44,710 bases of DNA from an uncultured Ectothiorhodospiraceae bacterium (GTDB lineage: Bacteria; Pseudomonadota; Gammaproteobacteria; UBA6429; Thiohalophilaceae). The notes beneath the pieces were generated by a model. That model ran no database searches. It was not told where the DNA came from and worked only from the letters and a program-made list of their open reading frames with translations. How positions within the stretch are numbered: the first letter of the stretch is position 1; each line of letters starts with the position of its first letter. Of the stretch, positions 33,101 through 44,710 are shown one piece after another. The DNA lies in assembly GCA_947258695.1 (NCBI GenBank), contig CAMYJG010000010.1, positions 1 through 44,710 of the forward strand. The letters are read 5' to 3'. The position numbers and the translations under genes were made by a program.

Positions 33101-33658
33101 ATGAAGTATTGTAGTGAATGCGGCAAAACCGTCGTCCACCGTGTACCAGAGGGGGACAACCTGCCTCGTTTCATTTGTGAACATTGCGACATCATTCATT
33201 ACCAAAATCCAAAGCTAGTTGTTGGCTGTCTGCCGGTCTGGAATGAACAAGTGCTGCTTTGTAAACGTGCCATCGAGCCCTGCTCCGGGCTATGGACATT
33301 GCCCGCTGGCTTTATGGAAAACCAGGAATCACTCGAAGAAGCTGCTCTACGTGAGTCAGATGAAGAAGCCAATGCAAATTTGGAAATCGAAAGCATATAC
33401 TCGGTTATAAGCTTACCGCATATTAACCAAATCTATGTGTTATACCGGGCAAAACTGCTGGATCTGGACTTTTTTGCCGGTCCAGAAAGTTTAGATGTTC
33501 AGCTTTTTAATGAAGAAGATATTCCCTGGGAAAAACTCGCATTTAAAACCATTGAGTTTACATTAAAACGTTTTTTTGAAGATAGGAAAAACGACCATTT
33601 CCCAGTACATAACACGGTAGTTTCAAAACGGAATCGTTTAGGGCAGGAAATAGATTAG
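33101..33658 (+). CDS. Nudix hydrolase with N-terminal zinc ribbon
   Basis: 185 residues. An N-terminal zinc ribbon (CSECGKTV...CEHC, residues 4-30) precedes the Nudix domain. The Nudix box is GFMENQESLEEAALRESDEEA, fitting G-x5-E-x7-R-E-x2-E-E (about 72-93). The arrangement is that of the NudC-like group, which cleaves nucleoside diphosphate derivatives such as NADH or ADP-ribose. It follows the small gene by three bases, so is likely translationally coupled. Confidence 0.85.
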   Translation: MKYCSECGKTVVHRVPEGDNLPRFICEHCDIIHYQNPKLVVGCLPVWNEQVLLCKRAIEPCSGLWTLPAGFMENQESLEEAALRESDEEANANLEIESIYSVISLPHINQIYVLYRAKLLDLDFFAGPESLDVQLFNEEDIPWEKLAFKTIEFTLKRFFEDRKNDHFPVHNTVVSKRNRLGQEID

Positions 33659-33660
33659 TA

Positions 33661-34110
33661 TTATTTTTTACTCCAGCGTAAACGGCTCATTACCCAGTTG
33701 CCGCCCTCTTTAATCCAACGAGACTCAACGTTATAAGCCTGTCCTCTTTCCGGTAACCAGTCACCTGATCCAAGTAACAACGTGTCCATAATGACATCCG
33801 CCGTGGTGTTATCTATCGAAGAACCATGCAGCCTGATTTCCCTGTTTAAAACTGTCACGGAAATATTTTTATTACGACGAAACTGGTAATGAACGAATAA
33901 GAAAAATTTTTCATTATTCATCTTTTCAGAAACTAAAAAGTCTTTCGCCAGGTACTGACGGATTTTTTTAGCATCTTTATCTTCTATGACTTCGAGTAGT
34001 TTATCCAACTGTTGGTTAAGTAAATCTTTATCGTCAGTTTTTGTACATGATAAAAGCAGCAATGAACTCGATAGAATAAAAACTGTTAATACTATTTTTT
34101 TAATCATCAT
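33661..34110 (-). CDS. Small exported lipoprotein of unknown function
   Basis: 149 residues from the ATG at 34110 (a second ATG follows directly). A lipoprotein signal (IVLTVFILSSSLLLLSC, lipobox LLSC) is followed by about 125 residues with a conserved-looking NTF2/SnoaL-like length and pattern (DKLLEVIEDKDAKKIRQYL, then beta strands to a C-terminal GNWVMSRLRW). The substrate or partner is unknown. It is divergent from apbE with a 51-base spacer, and convergent with the Nudix gene. Confidence 0.6.
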   Translation of the reverse strand: MMIKKIVLTVFILSSSLLLLSCTKTDDKDLLNQQLDKLLEVIEDKDAKKIRQYLAKDFLVSEKMNNEKFFLFVHYQFRRNKNISVTVLNREIRLHGSSIDNTTADVIMDTLLLGSGDWLPERGQAYNVESRWIKEGGNWVMSRLRWSKK

Positions 34111-34161
34111 CTTTATATAATAGTCAAAATCACAAACAAATGGTTGTTTAGAAAAAATATA

Positions 34162-35157
34162 ATGCATATCTCCACTATCAACTATAAAAGATTAATTCTA
34201 GTCATTTCTATAATGACCCTGTTTCTCAGTTCACAAGTTCAGGCCGAGTGGTTTAAAGCCGATCGCGCCATTATGGGTACCGCGATTCACGTTGAATTAT
34301 GGCACAACGACAAAGCAGTTGCAGATAGGCTCATACAAAAAGTATTTGATGAAATGCAAAGAATTGATAAGTTAATGAGCCCTTATAAAAAAGACAGTGA
34401 GCTTAGCTTAATCAATAACTTGGCTGCTAAACAACCGCTCAAAATTAGCTCAGAACTTTTTGATTTAATTCAGAAATCTATCAATGTATCGACACTATCT
34501 AACGGTGCTTTTGATATTACTTTCTCAAGTGTCGGGCAATTTTACGATTACCGGAAAAGAATCAAGCCCACTAAAGCTCAAGTAGAAAAAAACTTAAAAA
34601 AAATAAATTACAAAAGCATTAAGCTTAACTCGAGCAATAACACCATCTACTTCACTCAACAAGGAACACGGATAGACTTAGGTGGAATAGCAAAAGGACA
34701 TGCTGTTGATAATGCGATTCAACTATTACAGGAAAATGGCATTACCCAGGCCATGGTCTCTGCAGGTGGTGACACCCGTATTATTGGTGATAAAGGTGGA
34801 CGCCCCTGGTATGTCGGTATCCGCCATCCCCGTAAAAAAGGAAAATCTGCTGTTATTCTGCCGTTAAGTCAGTCAGCCATATCGACATCGGGTGATTATG
34901 AGCGTTATTTTATAAAAGACAATGTTCGCCACCATCATATTATCAAGCCCAGTACAGGCGACTCTGCACGTGAATTAAGAAGCGTTAGTATACTAGGAGC
35001 TGACAGCACTACCGTTGATGCACTGTCCACTACGGTGTTTATATTAGGTTTAAATAAGGGAATGAAATTAATTTCTGAGTTGCCAAATACAGAGGCCATT
35101 ATTATCGATAACAATGGCCGCATGCATTACAGTACTGGTCTAGCAACTACTAAGTGA
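34162..35157 (+). CDS. apbE: FAD:protein FMN transferase ApbE
   Basis: 331 residues from the ATG at 34162; a TTG 18 bases upstream is rejected. A signal peptide of about 22-30 residues (LILVISIMTLFLSSQVQA) makes it periplasmic. The ApbE motifs are seen: MGTAIHVELW, SNGAFDITFSSVG, and the flavin-binding RIDLGGIAKGHAVDNA. ApbE covalently attaches FMN to Thr/Ser of Nqr, Rnf, NosR and FMN_bind proteins; none of those targets is in the window. It overlaps the 3' end of the Tat-exported gene by eight bases, tail to tail. Confidence 0.94.
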   Translation: MHISTINYKRLILVISIMTLFLSSQVQAEWFKADRAIMGTAIHVELWHNDKAVADRLIQKVFDEMQRIDKLMSPYKKDSELSLINNLAAKQPLKISSELFDLIQKSINVSTLSNGAFDITFSSVGQFYDYRKRIKPTKAQVEKNLKKINYKSIKLNSSNNTIYFTQQGTRIDLGGIAKGHAVDNAIQLLQENGITQAMVSAGGDTRIIGDKGGRPWYVGIRHPRKKGKSAVILPLSQSAISTSGDYERYFIKDNVRHHHIIKPSTGDSARELRSVSILGADSTTVDALSTTVFILGLNKGMKLISELPNTEAIIIDNNGRMHYSTGLATTK

Positions 35158-36721
35158 TTTGTCCAAAAGCAGTATAACTATCCCTGACAACCGAGCTTCC
35201 TAAACTATGATTAGGGAACAGCGTTTCAAACTGACCTTCCTCCCCATGCAGAGCCATGTAGTTTAGTATCACGGCCTCAACCAGTGAGTTCACGTTATTG
35301 GCCATTGCGGTTGAATTATTTGTTTCAACCGAGGCACCTGGACGATACCAGCCTATCTGTTGATGTAGCATTTGCTGATCAGGTGTTCCGCCCAGAAGGG
35401 TTGGTGTATTGGTTGGGTGATAGACCAGGAAGAATGAAGCTGCAGTTGAAGAGTTATCACCAGTCCAGACTAGCTCGCCATTAGCCGCAGGATCAGGTGT
35501 ACCGTTACTGGCAACTGAACCGTCACTGAATACATATATCATGAGTGGTTTACCCACTAACTCAGCATATTTTAAACAGGCACCAATACAACGTCCCGCT
35601 CTCAAGTCCCTTGCATTACCCGTGGTACGGTTTCCAGTGTGATAGTCATAACCACCCATACTAATAGTACCGGCACCGGCAAGCCCATTAACAACCATTT
35701 TCATAACCGATGCGGCTTTATTAAACTCACGATCATTAACATAATCCAAACCGCCATTAGCAAAAGCTGTGGCTATATTTACATCACCATTAACATCTAA
35801 CTTGGTTCCGCTTCCATAGCCTTCAACCATGTCCGCTGATTGAACATAGTTACACTTCACTTGTTCTTTAATATTTGCATCATCAGTTGGAGACAAACCT
35901 GTATCCACATTTGAATTATCCATTTTTGCAGCACTGAGGCGTTGAATGGTTTCCATAACCCTGGTCGCATTATCAACACCCATCTTAGCCGCCAGTTCAC
36001 CTGTATCGACTAAACCACTGACGTCACCGGCACGATCTATTTTGGTGGGTCGAGCTGTTAAATCGATCATCGTACTAGGTGACATTGAATTACCACCTGA
36101 ATCAGAATTTCGAGAACCGATTAGTCCCATGATATCGCCCACTGCACCGGTTTTATAAATGCCGTACATCGGATTATGTGGGTTATTACCCGTATCGTTA
36201 GCAGAGCGCGCAGGAATAACAGCACCATTAACTCTTGCTACAGTACTACCTGCATAGCACTCTAGCATTCCTTGCAGCATTTTACTTTCGGTATGAAAAG
36301 GTAAACCAAAATCACGATTCACAAATAACTCTGTTCCACCAAATGATGGAATACGATCACCTGCTACACCCAGTTTGCTATAACCTGATGCGGTTAACGA
36401 ATCTTCAATTCCTCCCTGGCCGCCAACTAAAACATTTGAGCCAGCGATATTTGCTCCACCTGCCAAATCAAAACAGATAAAAGGAATTTTTCCCGCACCG
36501 TCTTGAATGCCACAGGCATTTTTCAAATCGATCATATCTTGAGATAGCGCATGAGCCGGTCTTGAGCCAGCAAGCATGCTTAACATAGTCGGAGCAATTA
36601 CCGCACCGGCACCTGATATAAAGCCCTGCCTAATAAAATCTCGCCGTGTGACAGGCCGAGGATGATCAGGATGCAATAATGGTTCATCCGGATGAAGGGT
36701 TCTAATTTTCTTCTTCGCCAT
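35150..36721 (-). CDS. Tat-exported DUF1501-like protein
   Basis: 523 residues with an AAGGAAG ribosome-binding site. A Tat signal sits at 24-60 (twin arginine at Arg26-Arg27 in TRRDFIRQGF, then GAGAVIAPTML and the cleavage region AHA). The core resembles DUF1501, alkaline-phosphatase-like proteins: KIPFICFDLAGGANIAGSN near the start, MGGYDYHTGNRTTG near 355 and LMIYVFSDGSVASNG near 395. Homologues in proteobacteria are often named GspF, which is a misnomer. It carries no heme motif and folds with cofactors before export. Position after the LamG-heme gene implies one operon. Confidence 0.72.
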   Translation of the reverse strand: MAKKKIRTLHPDEPLLHPDHPRPVTRRDFIRQGFISGAGAVIAPTMLSMLAGSRPAHALSQDMIDLKNACGIQDGAGKIPFICFDLAGGANIAGSNVLVGGQGGIEDSLTASGYSKLGVAGDRIPSFGGTELFVNRDFGLPFHTESKMLQGMLECYAGSTVARVNGAVIPARSANDTGNNPHNPMYGIYKTGAVGDIMGLIGSRNSDSGGNSMSPSTMIDLTARPTKIDRAGDVSGLVDTGELAAKMGVDNATRVMETIQRLSAAKMDNSNVDTGLSPTDDANIKEQVKCNYVQSADMVEGYGSGTKLDVNGDVNIATAFANGGLDYVNDREFNKAASVMKMVVNGLAGAGTISMGGYDYHTGNRTTGNARDLRAGRCIGACLKYAELVGKPLMIYVFSDGSVASNGTPDPAANGELVWTGDNSSTAASFFLVYHPTNTPTLLGGTPDQQMLHQQIGWYRPGASVETNNSTAMANNVNSLVEAVILNYMALHGEEGQFETLFPNHSLGSSVVRDSYTAFGQIT

Positions 36722-36756
36722 GATATGACTTCCTTACACTCTATTCATCGTTAATA

Positions 36757-39345
36757 TTACTGTATAGACATGGCAGCACTGCCTAATACCGAGGTACACA
36801 TTGCTTTAATAATATCGTTTGTGCTTGAACCAGCATTATCTAAGCGGGTGAAAAGGTTACCCGGATAAGTGCCGCCTTGAGCCGTATTGATTAATTCATC
36901 TGTCACTTGTGCTCGTGTCGGAGCATTAATCAATTCAGCTCCTTCTGCTACAACTGGTATACCAACCATGCGATCATACAAAGCATTTACTACATCTTCT
37001 TTTACTGCATAGGTACTAAATGCTGTGCCTACCGCTTGTCCAAAACCATTAAAGTTATACGGAGCAACGTTGAAAAAATTACCTCTCAACGTTGTATCTT
37101 GTACCAGCTGATCACAATACTCAAAAGCAAGTTGCGATATACCTATAATATTTGCTGGTACGAATGCATTTATATCTTCGGCAGCTGGTAACTGTTGTAT
37201 CACGTTCTGATAAGCGGTTAAAACAGCTGTATTACTTGTTGGCACACCGGTTAACTCAGACATCATGCCATTAACTTCAGAGAATGTTTTAACACCAATA
37301 TCAGACTGAGGATCCAGATCTGCTGGAACAGCAGGTGCAGCCGGTGTGGCGACAGCAAACGGATTATTTTCCGTACCCAGTGTTTCAAAAGTAAGGAAGA
37401 AATCATCTATTTGAGTACCTTGTTGCACCTCAACCATCGTACCTAAGGTCGATATTTCCTGGAAATTTTGGTTAATCACCAATGGACTTCCATCCGTCGC
37501 TTTAATATTGGTAAATGACTGAGCAATCGTTGCTTCTTTACCATTAATGCCGATACGCATGCCAGCAATAGGTATATTAATTGCGGGCACTGGATTACCC
37601 AGGTTGACATAAACAGGGTTACTAAACAGGTAACTATAGGTATCAAACTGCTCAGCCTGTAGTTTTATATAACTATCTGCAGGTACACCCGGCACATGAC
37701 TGATACTAAACAGGAGGAAGAATTTTTGACCTACCCCTGCCTGGAAATTTTGCGTGATTTGTTCATCCGATAAAACCCGGTTGTGAACCGCAACCATACG
37801 GAAAATCCCTTGCCATGCATTACTACCATCAAACGAGCCTACTTCGTTACCCAGTATAAAAGATAACCTGTCATTCCAGATGCTTTGATTATTAACGTCT
37901 TTTATTGCACCCATATTATTCGCTGGATCATAATTTGATTCAACACCATTAATATAAACGCGATTGCCCTCCGTCGCATTATAAGTAATCACAATATGTT
38001 GCTGTGAGATTTGCACATCATCTACCGTTTCTTTTGAGACAGCATTACCATCCAGGTTATTCTCTGAGCGAGTAAAAGTCCGATACTCGTTATCATATTG
38101 AGAAAACGTAAAGTTACGCGACGTACTTCCAGAATATGAAATCATGGTTTTACGTTGCATTTCAAGTGACGGAATCACCCAGGCCTCGATTGAATATTCC
38201 TGGCGTAATTCAGCTTCTTCAATTAATTTCTGACTGGTTTGATAAGAAGCTTGCGCCTGTCCATTTCTGAATTGAATGCCATATCCGCCTACCCAGTTAT
38301 AATCACCTGAGATAGATAAATGCATTAAAGGTTCAACATTACTGGTGTCGTACGCCACGTTGCCATCACCAGTTTTAAATTCCCAGAGTGCAATCTGATT
38401 TGAAACATGACGCTCACCAGCCGTGGCAATGATGGCTTCCGGTGGTTGAAGTTTCATTGCTTTACTGACAATTAAATCTGGATCAATTGGAGTCGGATCT
38501 GTAATTGAATTGGCGAATGCAGTTATAGCATTTTCCATTTCCTGTGATGAATAAACACAATCTGGACTAGGATCAGGCGTCGCAGGATCATCCCAGCAGT
38601 TATGCGACTGTTGGCGTAACCGATAAACTAAGCGAGAACCTGCAGGATCGAGCAAATCAATTTTTTGTTGTGCATCTTGATAGGCCTGGTTGATATCACT
38701 TGAGGCAAATGAACCAGTAGCACCATTCCTGGTTGGAGATGCATGACAGGTTGCACAATTGGTTTGTAACAAATTATGCAAAGCAGTGAAATTAGCCGGT
38801 GATGCAGGGAACTGTTTTACATTAGCCACATCACGCAATGGACTTGGTGCAGTCAAAGTATAACTTGCTACTGCTTGTGTCGTACTCGTCAGGTTATTCC
38901 AGTTATCAAGGAAACCTTTAATCGCATCAGCACAATCTGCTTCCGTAGCTAACCAACATGCCTGAGGTTTATGACCATTTCTGACTTTTGTCACTAAAAT
39001 TGAATCATTGGTTGATGCAAGATTCACATACGGACGAACAGCTTGATAATTATCATTCAGCGTTACACCGAGTTCGTTGTCGTTAGCATCAACAAATTGA
39101 GGTACTTGCCCAATCTCAGCGTTATGGCATTTGCCACATCGATTTTCATCCGATAAATTTTTCCAAACTTCATTATAATAACCCATCGCTTCAGAGCCTG
39201 CTTTGTCTAAAAAGTCTGCCTCTGTAGCTTGAATGCCCGAAGGTGCATTTTCTGAAGTTCCAGCACCACCACCACACGCAACCAAACCAGCTAGTGATAG
39301 TAATATGAGTATATTTTTTTTGATTATATTCGATGTTAATGTCAT
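36757..39345 (-). CDS. Di-heme LamG-domain lipoprotein
   Basis: 862 residues. The lipobox LVAC has its cysteine at 24. Two c-type heme sites, CGKCH (70-74) and CATCH (197-201), lie in the first 200 residues. A LamG/concanavalin-like sandwich covers about 318-535 (WEFKTGDGNVAYDTS, YSIEAWVIPSLEMQRKTMISY, NRVYINGVES). The last 300 residues are of unknown fold and look helical towards the end. The protein is probably outer-membrane anchored, with heme redox and a carbohydrate- or protein-binding module in one chain. It lies 35 bases upstream of the DUF1501-like gene and 48 downstream of the mono-heme gene, so the three are one operon. Confidence 0.75.
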   Translation of the reverse strand: MTLTSNIIKKNILILLSLAGLVACGGGAGTSENAPSGIQATEADFLDKAGSEAMGYYNEVWKNLSDENRCGKCHNAEIGQVPQFVDANDNELGVTLNDNYQAVRPYVNLASTNDSILVTKVRNGHKPQACWLATEADCADAIKGFLDNWNNLTSTTQAVASYTLTAPSPLRDVANVKQFPASPANFTALHNLLQTNCATCHASPTRNGATGSFASSDINQAYQDAQQKIDLLDPAGSRLVYRLRQQSHNCWDDPATPDPSPDCVYSSQEMENAITAFANSITDPTPIDPDLIVSKAMKLQPPEAIIATAGERHVSNQIALWEFKTGDGNVAYDTSNVEPLMHLSISGDYNWVGGYGIQFRNGQAQASYQTSQKLIEEAELRQEYSIEAWVIPSLEMQRKTMISYSGSTSRNFTFSQYDNEYRTFTRSENNLDGNAVSKETVDDVQISQQHIVITYNATEGNRVYINGVESNYDPANNMGAIKDVNNQSIWNDRLSFILGNEVGSFDGSNAWQGIFRMVAVHNRVLSDEQITQNFQAGVGQKFFLLFSISHVPGVPADSYIKLQAEQFDTYSYLFSNPVYVNLGNPVPAINIPIAGMRIGINGKEATIAQSFTNIKATDGSPLVINQNFQEISTLGTMVEVQQGTQIDDFFLTFETLGTENNPFAVATPAAPAVPADLDPQSDIGVKTFSEVNGMMSELTGVPTSNTAVLTAYQNVIQQLPAAEDINAFVPANIIGISQLAFEYCDQLVQDTTLRGNFFNVAPYNFNGFGQAVGTAFSTYAVKEDVVNALYDRMVGIPVVAEGAELINAPTRAQVTDELINTAQGGTYPGNLFTRLDNAGSSTNDIIKAMCTSVLGSAAMSIQ

Positions 39346-39393
39346 CGCTTATTACTCCATCGATCAAACGATATTTGTATTTATTCGGAAAAA

Positions 39394-40821
39394 TTACGGG
39401 CCTTTACAATATGCCGCAGTTTCAGCAAATACCTGCTTTAATTCATAACCTGGACCGCTATTGACCATATATGACGATTTAAAATTGCTTAGAATGCTAT
39501 TAACCGCAGTATGGTCAGTTGAATTACCGGGTTTGCGTAAACAAACTGCTTGAAATACTTTTTCCACCTGGCAGCGAGCAAACATTTCACTATAGGCCAA
39601 TTCTTGTCCCATTGATTTTGCGCCACTGCCTTCACCGTCAACAACAGTTAATGGCGTTGCATTCCAGTTAGGTATGCTGGTATTGGGTGTGACATTATCG
39701 CCAACAACTGAATTTTTGCCCTGACGCCAGTAGTTAATCCAGCTATCATCGGTTGTGATATAGCCCGGTTTAAAGTTATCCGCGTTTATTAAGTTTTTTG
39801 CCTGAACCACGCCATCAGTAAATTCCAGTGTAGTAGTGGACTTGTTGTACTCGTAATAAGCAAATGCCTGGGTCATCGGATCCATCGTAGTATGACAACC
39901 TATACACTCATTCATATAAATTCGGCTATCTCCACCTGGGCTACGAGACACATCCTGGCGTATACGATCTGCAGGTAGAGTCGCGTCCTTCAACTGCTCC
40001 ATATCGTTACAAAGGTGGTTAAGAACCGTAAAACGGAACATGGCACGGTTGGTGCCATCAACAAAGAAGGCCTTGGCACCCGCACGGGTAGTCATTACGC
40101 CAGCTGTTTGTGTGTTATTTAGCACACCACCAGTGTTAGCTGCTTGAGAAACTTTCAGCAGAACATCATTTGCAGGATCAACTGAATCTGGCCCAACAAC
40201 GGTTGGATTGGGGTTTTGGACAAAGCCCAGGTTTAAACCGCTATCTTGTAGTTGCTGGAAATGAGCATTACTTGAATAACTGTACCCTGTTGATAGCTCA
40301 GGACGTGAAGTATTCCCTATATATAAGACATCATCAAAAAGAATTTTACGAAAATCGTCATCATCACGAACAACCCCGATAACGGTGGTTGTGTAATCAT
40401 TCAATATCCCTTCATCATCCATATCTTCAGGAAAAACTGCACGGGCTTCATTTGTCCAGGGAGTAATCAGGTTAACCAGGGTAGCGTTATAAAAGTTTTT
40501 ATTTTCCATTGCGACGTAGGCAGCAGCAATTTCTCCTGCTGATGCCCCTAAAGTAGCATTTGCAACAGCATTCGGGTAATCAGAAGCAGCAACAGTTGTT
40601 GTACCATCAATCAAATCGACCATTTTATTTAAAACCGCAGTACTTGGAGCAGTACCAGTCAAACGGTCATGTATTCGCTTAGCTTTAGTGCGGTTATCAG
40701 CAAAAGCATTTCCGGCAGCTAGCAACACAATGCTCAAAAATAAGACTGACCGTAATATAATAAGGTGGTAATTTGATGTCATTTCCAGCTTTTCTTTATT
40801 GTTTATTGTTAAATTCTGCAT
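39394..40821 (-). CDS. Exported mono-heme DUF1588-like protein
   Basis: 475 residues; AAAGG about nine bases before the ATG at 40821 supports this start. The signal peptide is around 20-41 (LRSVLFLSIVLLAAGNAFA). One heme site, CIGCHTTMDPMTQAFAYYEY, begins at Cys306; this resembles the DUF1588 motif of planctomycete-type cytochromes (CxxCH-x2-DP-x-G/Q-FA-x-E). Other cysteines (271, about 438, 448 and 472) may form disulfides. It is the first gene of the minus-strand operon, divergent from the HzsA-like gene. Confidence 0.7.
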   Translation of the reverse strand: MQNLTINNKEKLEMTSNYHLIILRSVLFLSIVLLAAGNAFADNRTKAKRIHDRLTGTAPSTAVLNKMVDLIDGTTTVAASDYPNAVANATLGASAGEIAAAYVAMENKNFYNATLVNLITPWTNEARAVFPEDMDDEGILNDYTTTVIGVVRDDDDFRKILFDDVLYIGNTSRPELSTGYSYSSNAHFQQLQDSGLNLGFVQNPNPTVVGPDSVDPANDVLLKVSQAANTGGVLNNTQTAGVMTTRAGAKAFFVDGTNRAMFRFTVLNHLCNDMEQLKDATLPADRIRQDVSRSPGGDSRIYMNECIGCHTTMDPMTQAFAYYEYNKSTTTLEFTDGVVQAKNLINADNFKPGYITTDDSWINYWRQGKNSVVGDNVTPNTSIPNWNATPLTVVDGEGSGAKSMGQELAYSEMFARCQVEKVFQAVCLRKPGNSTDHTAVNSILSNFKSSYMVNSGPGYELKQVFAETAAYCKGP

Positions 40822-40952
40822 TTTTTAACGCCTTTGATAACTGCTTCACCATGTATGCTCATTTATTAGTCTACATTGTTGATATGAGAAGCAAACATCA
40901 CTAAATGTTTTTCTCAGATTACAATAGTAGGAGGTTTCAAAAAATATTAGTA

Positions 40953-40993
40953 TGAACCTGTTCACAAATAGACACACTTTTTTACAATGTGTG
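40953..40993. promoter_or_regulatory. Inverted repeats in the divergent control region
   Basis: Between the two diverging transcripts (40822-41030, no other gene) lie TGAAC-CT-GTTCA at 40953-40964, and CACAC (40973-40977) with GTGTG (40989-40993) around an 11-base A/T core. These look like operator or dimer-binding sites serving one or both directions. No regulator gene is nearby and the motif is not recognised. Confidence 0.35.
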
Positions 40994-41030
40994 AAACCGT
41001 TCGCTGAATATTTACCTCAACAGCACCATA

Positions 41031-43910
41031 ATGAAGTCATTCTCTAAATTGGTCACGGGCTGTATCCAGATGTTTCAGACTATAAAATACAAATCTCCTA
41101 GCTTTATACTGAGCGCTAGCTTCTTATTTACCAGCTTTTTATTACAAACTGGTTGCGGCGGCGGTGAATCCGATGAAGGTGCATCTGGAATTGAAAACAA
41201 CCCTATAGCCTACATTAAACGTGCTACTCCCCGTGATGATCAAGGCGATATCGAAACCAATGATGTCAGAGTTCCGGTTAGTTTCACTCCGGGCGGTGAG
41301 CTTTACTTAAAAACTCGCTCAACACCGGACTCACCAGAAATAAATATTACCGACCGTTTAACAAATGGGGCTGGCGATGTTCAAGGGCTCAGCGTTTCTT
41401 TTGATGGAAAAAAATTACTTTTTTCGATGCGCCTGGAAGATCCTGATCCAAATGATGATCTCACTCCAAGCTGGAATATCTACGAATATGATATTGAGTC
41501 AGATACACTAACTCAGCTGACCGCGCTTTCTAATCCCAATCCTACCGATGATTTATTTGAAGATGACATCTCACCGCATTACCTGCCTAGTGGTGATATT
41601 ATTTTCTCTTCAAACCGCCAGGTAGAAAGTAAAGGTATTCGCGGGAATGAGTACAGTAACGATTTTACCGCAACCGATGAAAATCGTAATAACCGTGCAT
41701 TTTTATTACATGTGCGCAGTCAGGATGATGGCTCAATAAGACAGGTCTCGTTTAATCAAAGCCACGACCTGGATCCAACTATTTTACAGGATAGTGGCCT
41801 GGTACTTTTTAGCCGCTGGAACCATATGGGCGGCAGAAATGATGTTAGCTTATACACCATGACGCCGGATGGTACAGATGTGAAAATGTACTATGGCTCT
41901 CATAGCCATAATACCGGCCAGGATCCTAATGCACGAGCATATACTAAAGCCCGCGAAATGGATGATGGACGCCTGCTGGCGATTTTACGTCCATTTGTTA
42001 CCAGCTTTGGCGGTGGTGATACAATTGTCATTGATGCAAAAAACTTTGCTGACAATACTCAACCTACCTGGGAGCAACAAGGCGCTGTATCGGGTACTGC
42101 ACAAACCGTTCTGACAGATAACGTGGTTGACTCATTAGGCATCTCATTAAAAGGTTATTATAACGCTATTGCTCCTATGTTAGATGGCAGTGGCCGTTAC
42201 CTGATGAGCTGGACTCAATGCCAGATATTATCTGACCCGGCGGATCAAAATTCCGACATTCTTCCTTGTTCTTTAGCAACATCAGCACAGCTAACTGATC
42301 CGAATGTCACCCTGGCACCACCGAGTTACGGTATCTTTTTGGTTAATCCGTCCACCCAAACTCAATTACCTCTGGTTAGGTCTGAATCCGACACACTTAT
42401 CACAGATATTGCGGTCGCATACCCAAGAAATACACCACCTATTGTTAATGCTTCATCAGACCTCGATAGTTCACTGGCAAATGTTGGCATAGGCGTTTTA
42501 CATATTCGTAGCGTTTATGACTTTGATTCAAGTTTTGGCACATATAATAATGTAGCCTTCCCAGCTGAACTTGATCCTGCTGATGACACTGATTTGGATT
42601 ATAAATCAGCAGACGATACGGTTATTAACCTCCCACTTGAAGTGGCAAACCCTAAAAATACAACCGCAGATGAGCGCCCTGCCCGTTTTATTCGTATAAC
42701 TAAAGGCGCATCTATTCCACCTCGTGATGTTAAAAATTTAGCCAATACAGCATATGGTGTCAGTAGACAACAAGGCATGCGCGAAATCATCGGTTATGCC
42801 CCGATTGAACCTGATGGTTCGGTAAAAATTAAAGTACCAGCGGATGTTCCGTTAACTTTAAGCATACTAGATAAGGATGGTCGTCGAATGGGTGGCCGTC
42901 ATCAATCATGGTTTACCGTCAGACCCGGTGAAACATTAGAATGTATCGGTTGCCATGTTCATGACACAAACGATCAAGCCAGCAATAAACCGCATGGTCG
43001 TATTAGTCAAGAATACTCTCTAAACCAGGGTGCACCCTCTTTCCCATATGTTTTCAGAAATTCGGTCGCCTCGTTATTTGCCGAGTTCGAGGAAACCATG
43101 GCAGAAGCACGAACACGTAGTGATGATAATGTGATGCAACCCAGTATCGATTTAATCTACGATGATGTCTGGACAGATGATGTTGCAGCAAATCGCTCAG
43201 TCGATGCCAGCTTTGTTATTGATTACTCAGGTGTAAATTACTTAGCTTCTTCTCCTGCAAAGTCTGCATGCGATGATGGCATGGGTAACCCAAATACTTA
43301 TGATAATACCCTAAATAGCTTCACTTACTGCCGTATCGTGATTAATTATGTTGAGCATATTCAACCTATTTGGGAAGAAAACCGAACATACCTAGATCAA
43401 ACAAGTACCTTAGTTACTAATAATTGTACGACTTGCCATAATTTAGCCAATGTAACAGAAACTTATGGTCAACTGGAATTAACTAATAACGCTTCTGATT
43501 TGGTCGGTGAGCATATGACTTCATACCAGGAGTTATTTAGAAATGACATTGAACGAAATGCTGATGGGACAGAAATGGAAATTATGGTTCTTCAAGATAT
43601 TTTAGTAAATGGACAAACCATTGACCTGGATATGGATGGAAACCCTGATCAACAACTGGTTACCATTCCAGACCCAGATGCAGCGACAATAACGCCGTCA
43701 ATGTCTACAGCAGGTGCTCGTTCAAGCCGTAAGTTTATGGAGCTGATGACAGGGCAGGATATTGATGGAAATATGGGCAATCAGCCGACGGATACTAAAA
43801 ACCACCACCTGATGTTGACCCCATCTGAGTTGAAACTGATAACAGAATGGCTGGATATTGGGGCGCAATATTATAATAATCCAGTACATGTTAATGCGCC
43901 AGTAAACTAA
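41031..43910 (+). CDS. HzsA-related di-heme beta-propeller lipoprotein
   Basis: 959 residues. A lipoprotein signal ends in the lipobox LQTGC (Cys42). Residues about 60-470 have PD40/TolB-type propeller blades (VQGLSVSFDGKKLLFSMR, HYLPSGDIIFSSNRQ, HDLDPTILQDSGLVLFSRW). The middle part contains GYAPIEPDGSVKIKVPADVP, LDKDGRRMGGRHQSWFTVRPGE and heme site 1, CIGCH (638-642), as in hydrazine synthase alpha. Heme site 2, CTTCH (799-803), is in the C-terminal part. This is the domain order of the HzsA family. The partners HzsB/C are absent, so the reaction is unknown. No good ribosome-binding site precedes the ATG; an internal ATG at 41070 also keeps the lipobox. Confidence 0.75.
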   Translation: MKSFSKLVTGCIQMFQTIKYKSPSFILSASFLFTSFLLQTGCGGGESDEGASGIENNPIAYIKRATPRDDQGDIETNDVRVPVSFTPGGELYLKTRSTPDSPEINITDRLTNGAGDVQGLSVSFDGKKLLFSMRLEDPDPNDDLTPSWNIYEYDIESDTLTQLTALSNPNPTDDLFEDDISPHYLPSGDIIFSSNRQVESKGIRGNEYSNDFTATDENRNNRAFLLHVRSQDDGSIRQVSFNQSHDLDPTILQDSGLVLFSRWNHMGGRNDVSLYTMTPDGTDVKMYYGSHSHNTGQDPNARAYTKAREMDDGRLLAILRPFVTSFGGGDTIVIDAKNFADNTQPTWEQQGAVSGTAQTVLTDNVVDSLGISLKGYYNAIAPMLDGSGRYLMSWTQCQILSDPADQNSDILPCSLATSAQLTDPNVTLAPPSYGIFLVNPSTQTQLPLVRSESDTLITDIAVAYPRNTPPIVNASSDLDSSLANVGIGVLHIRSVYDFDSSFGTYNNVAFPAELDPADDTDLDYKSADDTVINLPLEVANPKNTTADERPARFIRITKGASIPPRDVKNLANTAYGVSRQQGMREIIGYAPIEPDGSVKIKVPADVPLTLSILDKDGRRMGGRHQSWFTVRPGETLECIGCHVHDTNDQASNKPHGRISQEYSLNQGAPSFPYVFRNSVASLFAEFEETMAEARTRSDDNVMQPSIDLIYDDVWTDDVAANRSVDASFVIDYSGVNYLASSPAKSACDDGMGNPNTYDNTLNSFTYCRIVINYVEHIQPIWEENRTYLDQTSTLVTNNCTTCHNLANVTETYGQLELTNNASDLVGEHMTSYQELFRNDIERNADGTEMEIMVLQDILVNGQTIDLDMDGNPDQQLVTIPDPDAATITPSMSTAGARSSRKFMELMTGQDIDGNMGNQPTDTKNHHLMLTPSELKLITEWLDIGAQYYNNPVHVNAPVN

Positions 43911-43936
43911 ATAGTTGTACAATATACGCTAAAATA

Positions 43937-43961
43937 ATAGTACATGTATGGACTATATAAT
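43937..43961 (+). promoter_or_regulatory. Perfect -10 box with overlapping palindrome before the SH3/barrel gene
   Basis: TATAAT at 43956-43961 is a perfect -10, without a recognisable -35. A 20-base imperfect palindrome (43937-43956, ATAGTaCATg / TATGgACTAT, 8 of 10 pairs) fills the place of the -35 and spacer. That suggests an operator covering the promoter. Transcription would begin near 43968. Confidence 0.35.
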
Positions 43962-43977
43962 AAATTTTAAGGAATAG

Positions 43978-44008
43978 ATGTACCGGCTTTTCTAAAACAA
44001 AAGTCGGT
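43978..44008 (+). other. Five-codon leader frame and hairpin covering the next gene's ribosome-binding site
   Basis: A tiny frame ATG TAC CGG CTT TTC TAA (43978-43995) has AAGGA four bases before it. Its body forms the left arm (43982-43991) of a 10-base stem with 43999-44008 (one G-U pair, 7-base loop). The right arm includes GGT, the beginning of the GGTGA site at 44006-44010 used by the ATG at 44019. Translation of the leader could thus open or close the site. No T run follows, so it is not a terminator. Confidence 0.3.
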
Positions 44009-44018
44009 GAAAATACTC

Positions 44019-44710
44019 ATGCGACTTAGAACTCTTCTTTTCATTTTATTTCAAAATGCAATCTTATCGCTCGCCTATGCTGAAGAGTCAGTGCAAGTCG
44101 TCAAAGTTGCAGATCCATTCCTTGAGATGCACACAGGTCCTAGCGTGGGTTATCCAATAACCAACATTGTTAAACGTGATGAAATCATATCAATTATTAA
44201 AACCCGTACCCAATGGTACCTCATTAAAACCAGGAAACATTTTGAAGGCTGGGTCCATCGTTCTCAATTAGTCAAAACACTAACTCTTGATGATGAAAAA
44301 GTCGCAATTAAAGATGTAACCCAGGCAGATTACCTCGAACATGACTGGGAAATGAGCATGATTGGGGGTGATTTCGGTGGCATACCGATGATGACCTTAT
44401 CAACTAGTTATGCTTTTACTCAAAATCTATCTGCAGAACTATCTTTCTCACAAATAGTAGGGGATTTTTCAAGCCGTACGATCCTCGGAGCAAACCTAGT
44501 ACATCATCCCTTCCCAGACTGGAGGGTATCGCCTTACTTCTCGATTGGAACAGGGTTGATAAAAACATCAACAAGATCAACATTAGCACAGCTTAAGGAT
44601 ACAACGGATGCTTTAGCAAATGTCAGCCTGGGCGCACAAATGTATTTAACGCGGCGTTTTCTTTTACGTGCAGATGTAAAAAAACATATTATCTTTCAAA
44701 GTAAAGACAA
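44019..44710 (+). CDS. SH3-domain / outer-membrane beta-barrel protein, N-terminal part (cut by window edge)
   Basis: 230 codons with no stop before the window edge. A signal peptide (1-21, LLFILFQNAILSLAYA) is followed by a bacterial SH3 domain (about 25-88: VADPFLEMHTGPSVGYP, KTRTQWYLIKTRKHFEGWVHRSQL). From about 110 the alternating hydrophobic strands (MIGGDFGGIPMMTLSTSYAF, LSAELSFSQIVGDFS, SPYFSIGTGLI, NVSLGAQMYLTRRFLLRAD) look like an OmpA/OmpW-type barrel. GTG at 44007 is an alternative in-frame start, but lies in a hairpin. It follows the HzsA-like gene by 108 bases and probably belongs to the same system. Confidence 0.75.
   Translation, partial: MRLRTLLFILFQNAILSLAYAEESVQVVKVADPFLEMHTGPSVGYPITNIVKRDEIISIIKTRTQWYLIKTRKHFEGWVHRSQLVKTLTLDDEKVAIKDVTQADYLEHDWEMSMIGGDFGGIPMMTLSTSYAFTQNLSAELSFSQIVGDFSSRTILGANLVHHPFPDWRVSPYFSIGTGLIKTSTRSTLAQLKDTTDALANVSLGAQMYLTRRFLLRADVKKHIIFQSKD

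Follow-up and report, generated by a model that had tools for sequence, protein, structure and literature searches.

The window analysed here (44,710 nucleotides, bases 1-44710 of contig C10 in a 3.2 Mb draft genome of an uncultured Ectothiorhodospiraceae bacterium) ends in a block of five genes whose products look exported, among them three CxxCH proteins, a protein with an alkaline-phosphatase (AP) fold and an outer-membrane barrel. The heme block is conserved as a unit and is linked to the genes of an Agl/Glt-type motor; the whole locus counts about 20 genes, with this motor set and a thioredoxin/DUF4266/DUF3570/ApbE set alongside the block. An earlier interpretation made from the letters alone (the sequence-only reading) had set the boundary at the five genes, which is too narrow. 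The new element is a constant heme/AP-fold/HzsA-like partner block of the gammaproteobacterial Agl/Glt core, and we consider it likely that block and motor are one functional machine.

The positions of the five open reading frames (ORFs), from ORF and motif reading and a Pfam search of the window proteins, are:

35150..36721, minus strand: Tat-exported 'DUF1501-like' protein of the alkaline-phosphatase superfamily, 523 amino acids (aa), twin-arginine motif TRRDFI
36757..39345, minus strand: LamG di-CxxCH lipoprotein, 862 aa, lipobox-like LVAC, Laminin_G_3 (E 1.8e-13)
39394..40821, minus strand: secreted mono-CxxCH protein, distantly DUF1585/DUF1588-like (PSD2/PSCyt3), 475 aa
41031..43910, plus strand: HzsA-like di-CxxCH lipoprotein, 959 aa, lipobox-like QTGC, HZS_alpha (E 5e-18)
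44007..44710, plus strand, continuing past the window end: SH3 domain and outer-membrane barrel protein (SH3_3 and a sub-threshold barrel model)

The divergent minus- and plus-strand blocks are 209 bp apart. CxxCH sites are found in the LamG protein (CGKCH and CATCH), the DUF1588-like protein (CIGCH) and the HzsA-like protein (CIGCH and CTTCH), and all three are predicted to carry covalent heme. The sequence-only reading was right about both the five exported-protein ORFs and the five sites (2 + 1 + 2). In the last protein SH3_3 scores 32.1 bits, above its cut-off, and the barrel model 25.9 bits, below its cut-off of 28.7. The window end (44710; about 4710-4775 in L026) coincides with a stretch of Ns in the scaffold and falls within this gene.

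Across a set of 58 genomes that counts the window's own, 23 have the DUF1501-like gene, 22 the LamG gene, 21 the DUF1588-like gene and 27 the HzsA-like gene. All four occur together in 21 of the 58 and on a single contig in 19; in G024 and G028 the set is split by contig ends. Genomes with the DUF1501-like gene almost always have the others (LamG 22/23, DUF1588-like 21/23, HzsA-like 22/23), compared with 0/35, 0/35 and 5/35 of those without it; G037, which has a contig-end fragment of the DUF1501-like gene, is included in these co-occurrence tests. Three of the five genomes with only the HzsA-like gene belong to genus g14 and have ApbE, HzsA, barrel, TlpA, DUF3570 and TPR genes but no minus-strand trio in the stretch; two of the three extend to GltG in the DNA fetched. 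The HzsA-like protein of this genus (L059, L060, L061) has a third CxxCH in a C-terminal extension. The order retained in relatives is DUF1501-like, LamG and DUF1588-like, then, divergently, HzsA-like, SH3 barrel, OMP_myx barrel, TlpA and DUF3570.

The same order of the heme block recurs in 80 named loci, kept from 560 confirmed among at least 592 stretches. These were found via the HzsA-like protein, so its presence in 80/80 carries no information. Genes were scored as present if an ORF exceeded 40 bits against profiles built from the 58 genomes; motifs were counted in ORFs above 300 bits and above a length limit. L067, L068 and L070 duplicate the contigs of G007, G006 and G019, and the distinct counts given below (87 and 100) leave duplicates out. 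The loci are labelled Gammaproteobacteria, Chromatiales, Woeseia, Thiodiazotropha, Povalibacter, Steroidobacter, tubeworm symbionts and others, with one Rhodospirillaceae and three labelled only Proteobacteria or Pseudomonadota. As fetched, 57/80 contain all four CxxCH/Tat genes. The trio is complete in 46 of the 48 with at least 6.5 kb upstream (exceptions L090 and L109), and SH3-OMP, OMP_myx and DUF3570 are present in all 65 with at least 3.5 kb downstream, TlpA in 55 of them. Sampling of the class gave the DUF1501-like family in 35/274 genomes (true DUF1501 in 56/274), and sampling of the phylum in 8/398, all eight from the same class (the share of sampled genomes outside that class is not given).

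Both LamG CxxCH sites are kept in 19/19 full-length relatives (two truncated proteins left out), the DUF1588-like site in 20/20 and the first HzsA-like site in 24/24. The second HzsA-like site is absent in G015, G022, G027 and G032 and lost by truncation in G005. Of the full-length LamG proteins in the named loci 55/57 have two sites; the DUF1588-like proteins have one in 63/63 and the HzsA-like proteins at least two in 74/79. Since they are conserved in relatives, the CxxCH sites are not chance occurrences. A simple lipobox pattern is seen in 43/57 LamG and 65/79 HzsA-like proteins, and the Tat motif pattern in 45/51 full-length DUF1501-like homologues. The sequence-only reading had expected the genes to recur together and the motifs to be kept in orthologues; the genes do recur together, and the sites are almost always retained.

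The cluster reaches about 16 kb beyond the window on the plus strand, and the ApbE gene preceding the block also belongs to it. The downstream genes, read on the same contig (G000:C10) in the coordinates of the window, follow the ApbE gene in this list (all on the plus strand):

34144..35157, plus strand: ApbE-like FAD:protein FMN transferase (PF02424, E 4.9e-82)
44824-45444, plus strand: OMP_myx_plus barrel, the second barrel (9e-51, 172 bits, cut-off 60)
45465-45974, plus strand: TlpA-like protein (AhpC-TSA, 1.8e-28)
45999-46220, plus strand: DUF4266, 73 aa, C-terminus CGCN (2.4e-23)
46165-47355, plus strand: DUF3570 (1.3e-36)
47373-47900, plus strand: 175-aa protein with no family match, position conserved in relatives
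47919-49814, plus strand: large TPR protein
49811-52663, plus strand: large TPR protein
52653-53291, plus strand: TPR lipoprotein
53774-54400, plus strand: ExbB (MotA_ExbB, 2.9e-26)
54403-54906, plus strand: ExbD, first copy (ExbD-type domain matches in the pair: ExbD 2e-13, TolR-type 1.5e-10)
54915-55409, plus strand: ExbD, second copy, forming the ExbD-type pair with 54403-54906
55345-56334, plus strand: GltG-type TonB-like protein with AgmX/PglI C-terminal domain (NF033768, 68.6 bits, cut-off 40)
56335-57021, plus strand: barrel-like protein, 228 aa
57242-60244 (L062:2243-5245), plus strand: cNMP-binding/rhodanese/coiled-coil protein, 1000 aa

The motor consists of one MotA/ExbB-type and two adjacent ExbD-type genes, in the same order in relatives. 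The GltG equivalog model gives 59.3 bits on the GltG-type protein, far below its own cut-off of 650. Three TPR proteins are candidate counterparts of GltC, GltD and GltE (the GltE model scores 51 bits, below its cut-off of 225), and the 175-aa gene, conserved in place among relatives, is a candidate for the extra gene of the core. None of the Group A gliding parts (GltA, GltB, GltF, GltH, GltI, GltJ, GltK) was identified, the OMP_myx_plus barrel being the only candidate.

The GltG-type domain is above cut-off in 38/58 genomes: 22/23 with the DUF1501-like gene versus 16/35 without it (Fisher, 6e-5). Within the own family the figures are 21/21 versus 11/16 (P 0.01) and in the class sample 32/35 block genomes versus 29/239 others (Fisher, 1.7e-21); none of 14 control genomes has the domain above cut-off. 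On the same contig and within 25 kb of the block it is found in 16/22 genomes of the 58-genome set (G037 left out) and in 13/35 of the class set, where random placement predicts 0.63. G006, G010 and G013 are linked to the motor via other genes of the run before the contig ends (HzsA to GltG, or DUF1501-like to 175-aa/TPR/ExbB), and in G005, G011 and G028 the linkage is cut by contig ends. The 10 kb flanks of the named loci also cut the motor genes, and 175-aa or TPR genes are seen in at least 35/80. Among the named genomes 15/16 have the GltG-type domain above cut-off, and in 14/16 fetched named loci two ExbD genes lie beside the GltG-type gene.

The two halves are not joined in one fixed way. 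In the genus to which the window belongs, as in G050, G132, G097, G256 and G190, the motor run follows DUF3570, sometimes with ApbE lying between them; in 12 relatives a single run reads DUF1501-like, ApbE, 175-aa, TPR, TPR, TPR, ExbB, ExbD, ExbD, GltG; and in G188, G095 and G235 other arrangements put block and motor close together. Because proximity is retained through rearrangement, function rather than inertia would explain it.

An ExbD/GltG tree (48 tips, a short alignment of 470 columns, midpoint-rooted, no myxobacterial sequences; L161 left out for want of an ExbD gene) places all 31 linked and 11/14 unlinked copies outside a five-tip clade with support 1.0; the 31 include two copies from genus g14 that are linked to HzsA only. 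The five-tip clade includes an own-genome GltG/ExbD copy beside type VI secretion genes. There (L202, G000:C2:127000-146999) a GltG/ExbB/ExbD/ExbD set lies directly behind genes for DotU, IcmF and a kinase with an FGE-sulfatase domain. The own genome has a further complete core, 175-aa-TPR-TPR-TPR-ExbB-ExbD-ExbD-GltG, next to soxY with no heme block in the stretch (L203, G000:C8:45000-63598); in the tree its long branch sits among the linked copies.

The Tat protein carries landmarks of DUF1501 type, GGYDYHTG and FSDGS. A Pfam search of the protein gave no match to any family, and none of 19 homologues matched Pfam DUF1501 (PF07394) at E <= 1; the own genome has no match either. Profile comparison with 13 real DUF1501 proteins of the same class returned a probability of 4-6%, and a weak DUF1501 profile match pairs GGWDTH with GGYDYH. 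The AF2 model (pLDDT 75.6) has an alkaline-phosphatase-superfamily fold (VIA Z 12.1, rmsd 3.9, 225 residues), the VIA matches shown being phosphodiesterases, sulfatases, phosphatases, phosphoglycerate mutases and MCR-type transferases. Foldseek matches were weak (best E 2.0e-3, none <=0.001). Having tried Pfam, profile comparison and fold, we reject true DUF1501 membership and retain the superfamily fold alone. Laminin_G_3 matches 19/19 LamG homologues. The DUF1588-like window protein has PSD2 and PSCyt3 matches at E 0.13 and 0.18, both below cut-off; PSD2 is matched by 9/19 family members (best 6.7e-5) and PSCyt3 by 5/19 (best 0.0096). Its model (pLDDT 66) gave one weak VIA match among 25 chains (Z 3.7). 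A profile search for solved relatives at E <= 0.1 found none for the DUF1588-like or DUF1501-like families. The HzsA-like profile matches PDB 5c2v_A at 2e-20, with the propeller, middle-domain and C-terminal stretches aligned to the hydrazine synthase alpha subunit. The HzsA-like propeller proposed by the sequence-only reading is therefore upheld as homology, but the heme tyrosine of hydrazine synthase has no counterpart in 100/100 homologues.

Gammaproteobacteria carry a seven-gene Agl/Glt core and one extra gene in one region, with its function open; the additional gene is reported to have no homologue in Myxococcales (Luciano et al. 2011, PMC3169522). Our locus resembles this core in having AglR/Q/S-, GltG-, GltE- and TPR-type genes in one region and differs in the heme/AP-fold block and the TlpA/DUF4266/DUF3570/ApbE set that accompany the motor. 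The main text of PMC3169522 contains no occurrence of cytochrome, thioredoxin or DUF (supplementary figure S1 is outside that check). Such cores were proposed in 2013 to be basal surface transporters, and in Myxococcus the surface movement of Nfs proteins and glycans is driven by Agl (PMC3858216). The Agl-Glt gliding and Agl-Nfs spore-coat machines described there share the motor type, GltG/GltE-type parts and TPR scaffold with the locus, which, unlike them, adds heme lipoproteins and a phosphatase-fold protein and is known here from genes alone. Searches of the open-access PMC literature, preprints excluded, returned no description of the combination of heme block and motor. The occurrence of the block with gliding-type motor genes in many gammaproteobacteria is a clue to the role of the motor outside gliding bacteria, and its constant partners supply the Agl/Glt core with concrete products: predicted covalent-heme lipoproteins, a phosphatase-fold protein and defined barrels.

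DUF1501 and DUF1552 are neighbour families in loci of the Planctomycetes-Verrucomicrobia-Chlamydiae (PVC) group. The sequence-only reading had taken the LamG module to distinguish the cluster from the planctomycete type, but Laminin_G_3 is already among the carbohydrate-binding modules of Verrucomicrobia PSCyt proteins (PMC5615132). These proteins, some with LamG, adjoin sulfatase and carbohydrate genes. The window proteins are like the PSCyt/PSD proteins of that source in their CxxCH domains, LamG and adjoining partner genes of unknown family, whereas they lie below Pfam thresholds, are spread over three proteins and come together with an HzsA-like lipoprotein and a motor. In proteobacteria Tat-type DUF1501 genes are co-located with chitin synthase genes (PMC5122149). 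The findings of PMC5122149 and PMC5615132 are a weak pointer to polymers.

All four gene types of the DUF3570 flavinylation module, ApbE, thioredoxin-like, DUF4266 and DUF3570, are found in the locus, as in the clusters of Meheust et al. (2021, PMC8238504), and a DUF4266-like ORF ending in CxC adjoins DUF3570 in 76/90. The main text of PMC8238504 mentions neither AglR nor DUF1501. Unlike the proteins of those clusters, the DUF3570 proteins here never have two [ST]GA[ST] flavinylation motifs (0/87 distinct proteins; one motif in 15, none in 72; with three duplicates counted in, 0/90, 15 and 75), and flavinylation of a Chlorobium DUF3570 protein was abolished only when both sites were altered (PMC8238504). 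A role of DUF3570 as flavinylated electron carrier, which we considered, is without motif support and was rejected.

On balance we favour, as the best explanation of the whole, a single trans-envelope machine whose outer half, the one that bears the hemes, is encoded in the window. The claim of a machine rests on gene content and conservation; its chemistry we infer. We suggest that a proton-driven Agl/TolQR-type motor (one ExbB, two ExbD) would pull or move a barrel/lipoprotein complex, the force being relayed via periplasmic TPR proteins and the GltG/AgmX-type TonB-like transducer, in the manner of Agl with Glt/Nfs in Myxococcus. The SH3 barrel, OMP_myx barrel and DUF3570 would be the outer-membrane barrels. 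The LamG and HzsA-like lipoproteins may display their hemes on the cell surface, facing a carbohydrate-type polymer, with LamG as binder and the hemes as redox centres, and the AP-fold protein (as hydrolase or transferase) and the DUF1588-like protein may work on that polymer or on its anchor. TlpA/DUF4266 (thiol care), and ApbE on some target, could maintain the periplasmic redox centres. The surface machine with a redox step envisaged in the sequence-only reading is a plausible proposal; a combined polymer-plus-redox function is a tentative proposal. We know of no coupling of mechanical force and electron transfer at an outer surface. That the stand-alone gammaproteobacterial Agl/Glt core uses the proton motive force to move heme lipoproteins mechanically, along a substrate outside the cell or against it, coupling force and electron transfer, seems doubtful to us but conceivable. 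A physical partnership would tie the orphan HzsA-like, PSCyt/DUF1501-like and DUF3570/DUF4266 groups into one machine.

Several observations weigh against a single machine. Relatedness of the genomes inflates the co-occurrence P values, no sequence feature names the machine's substrate, and the missing pair of flavinylation motifs in DUF3570 belongs here too. G086 (a single 3.4 Mb contig, C1; locus L219) keeps the trio while lacking a GltG match, and its HzsA-like gene reads as two ORFs; this locus may be decaying. G119 has the block and no GltG match above cut-off, and G037, with its fragment of the DUF1501-like gene, has no GltG match. L090 (chromosome CP070738) runs from HzsA to DUF3570 with no trio and no motor above cut-off, and L109 lacks the trio but has 175-aa and TPR genes. 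In G096 and G265 (L225, L224) the stretch fetched has a run of DUF1588-like, LamG and DUF1501-like genes and none of HzsA-like type. The GltG-type genes above cut-off are on other contigs in Woeseia (L139) and Povalibacter (L140), and 29 class genomes have GltG-type genes without the block. The cases of G086, G096, G265, Woeseia and Povalibacter, and the second full core of the own genome with no block in its stretch, would suit two independent systems that are merely syntenic, one a surface enzyme set with hemes and the phosphatase fold, the other an Agl/Glt-type motor of its own. We regard such independence as unlikely: block and GltG-type domain co-occur well beyond the level in other genomes of the class, lie within 25 kb far more often than random placement predicts, and stay joined through rearrangement of the two halves.

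The five CxxCH sites, the barrels, ApbE, TlpA and DUF4266 in one locus might instead make up an electron conduit over the outer membrane, for respiration or for mineral reduction or oxidation, which the motor merely assembles. However, no window protein is multiheme (at most two CxxCH each), the only Mtr-type match scores 13.1 bits, far below the cut-off of 30, and the AP-fold and LamG proteins would have no obvious place in it, so that we find a conduit rather improbable. We give similarly little credence to the simple transfer of a planctomycete-type PSCyt/PSD carbohydrate system into gammaproteobacteria. Similar kinds of protein, CxxCH with LamG and a PSCyt3/PSD2-like protein, do occur (PMC5615132), but in sequence they stand a long way from the PVC families (DUF1501 unmatched, PSD2/PSCyt3 weak), and the fixed partnership with the HzsA-like protein, barrels and motor is absent from the relevant passages of PMC5615132. 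The HZS_alpha match and the profile match to the solved alpha subunit raise the prospect of hydrazine-synthase-like nitrogen chemistry on the HzsA-like protein, which has the two heme sites of that subunit (5C2V). In hydrazine synthase Tyr591, four residues after His587, is the proximal ligand of heme alphaI (PMC12607021), but no tyrosine is found at +1 to +8 of the first CxxCH in 100 distinct HzsA-like homologues, and the NCBIfam hydrazine synthase model scores 50 against a cut-off of 800. Nor is a beta or gamma partner seen in the locus; no annotated neighbour matched the HzsB/C family, for which no genome-wide search was made. Descriptions in PMC12758564 of non-anammox homologues without key residues agree with this. 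Given the missing heme alphaI tyrosine and the low equivalog score, we rejected hydrazine synthesis by this protein, and chemistry of that kind is extremely improbable.

Two genes upstream of ApbE, NUDIX (33101-33658) and a small lipoprotein (33661-34167), were rejected as machine parts, each being present in 1/80 named loci; for NUDIX this control is weak, as the gene lies within some 10-20 kb in 16 genomes of our own set, near the edge of the 10 kb flanks. ApbE itself is convergent with the DUF1501-like gene in the window (8 bp overlap) and lies downstream of it on the same strand in 12 relatives; in G015 and G027 an opposite-strand ORF separates the two. One carrier with a strain number is Povalibacter uvarum DSM 26723 (L140). 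The 1000-aa protein at the far end of the locus combines cNMP-binding and rhodanese domains with a long, charged region that resembles a coiled coil, and is possibly a regulator. Long proteins with an N-terminus that resembles it by eye are found near GltG in 7/8 relatives listed.

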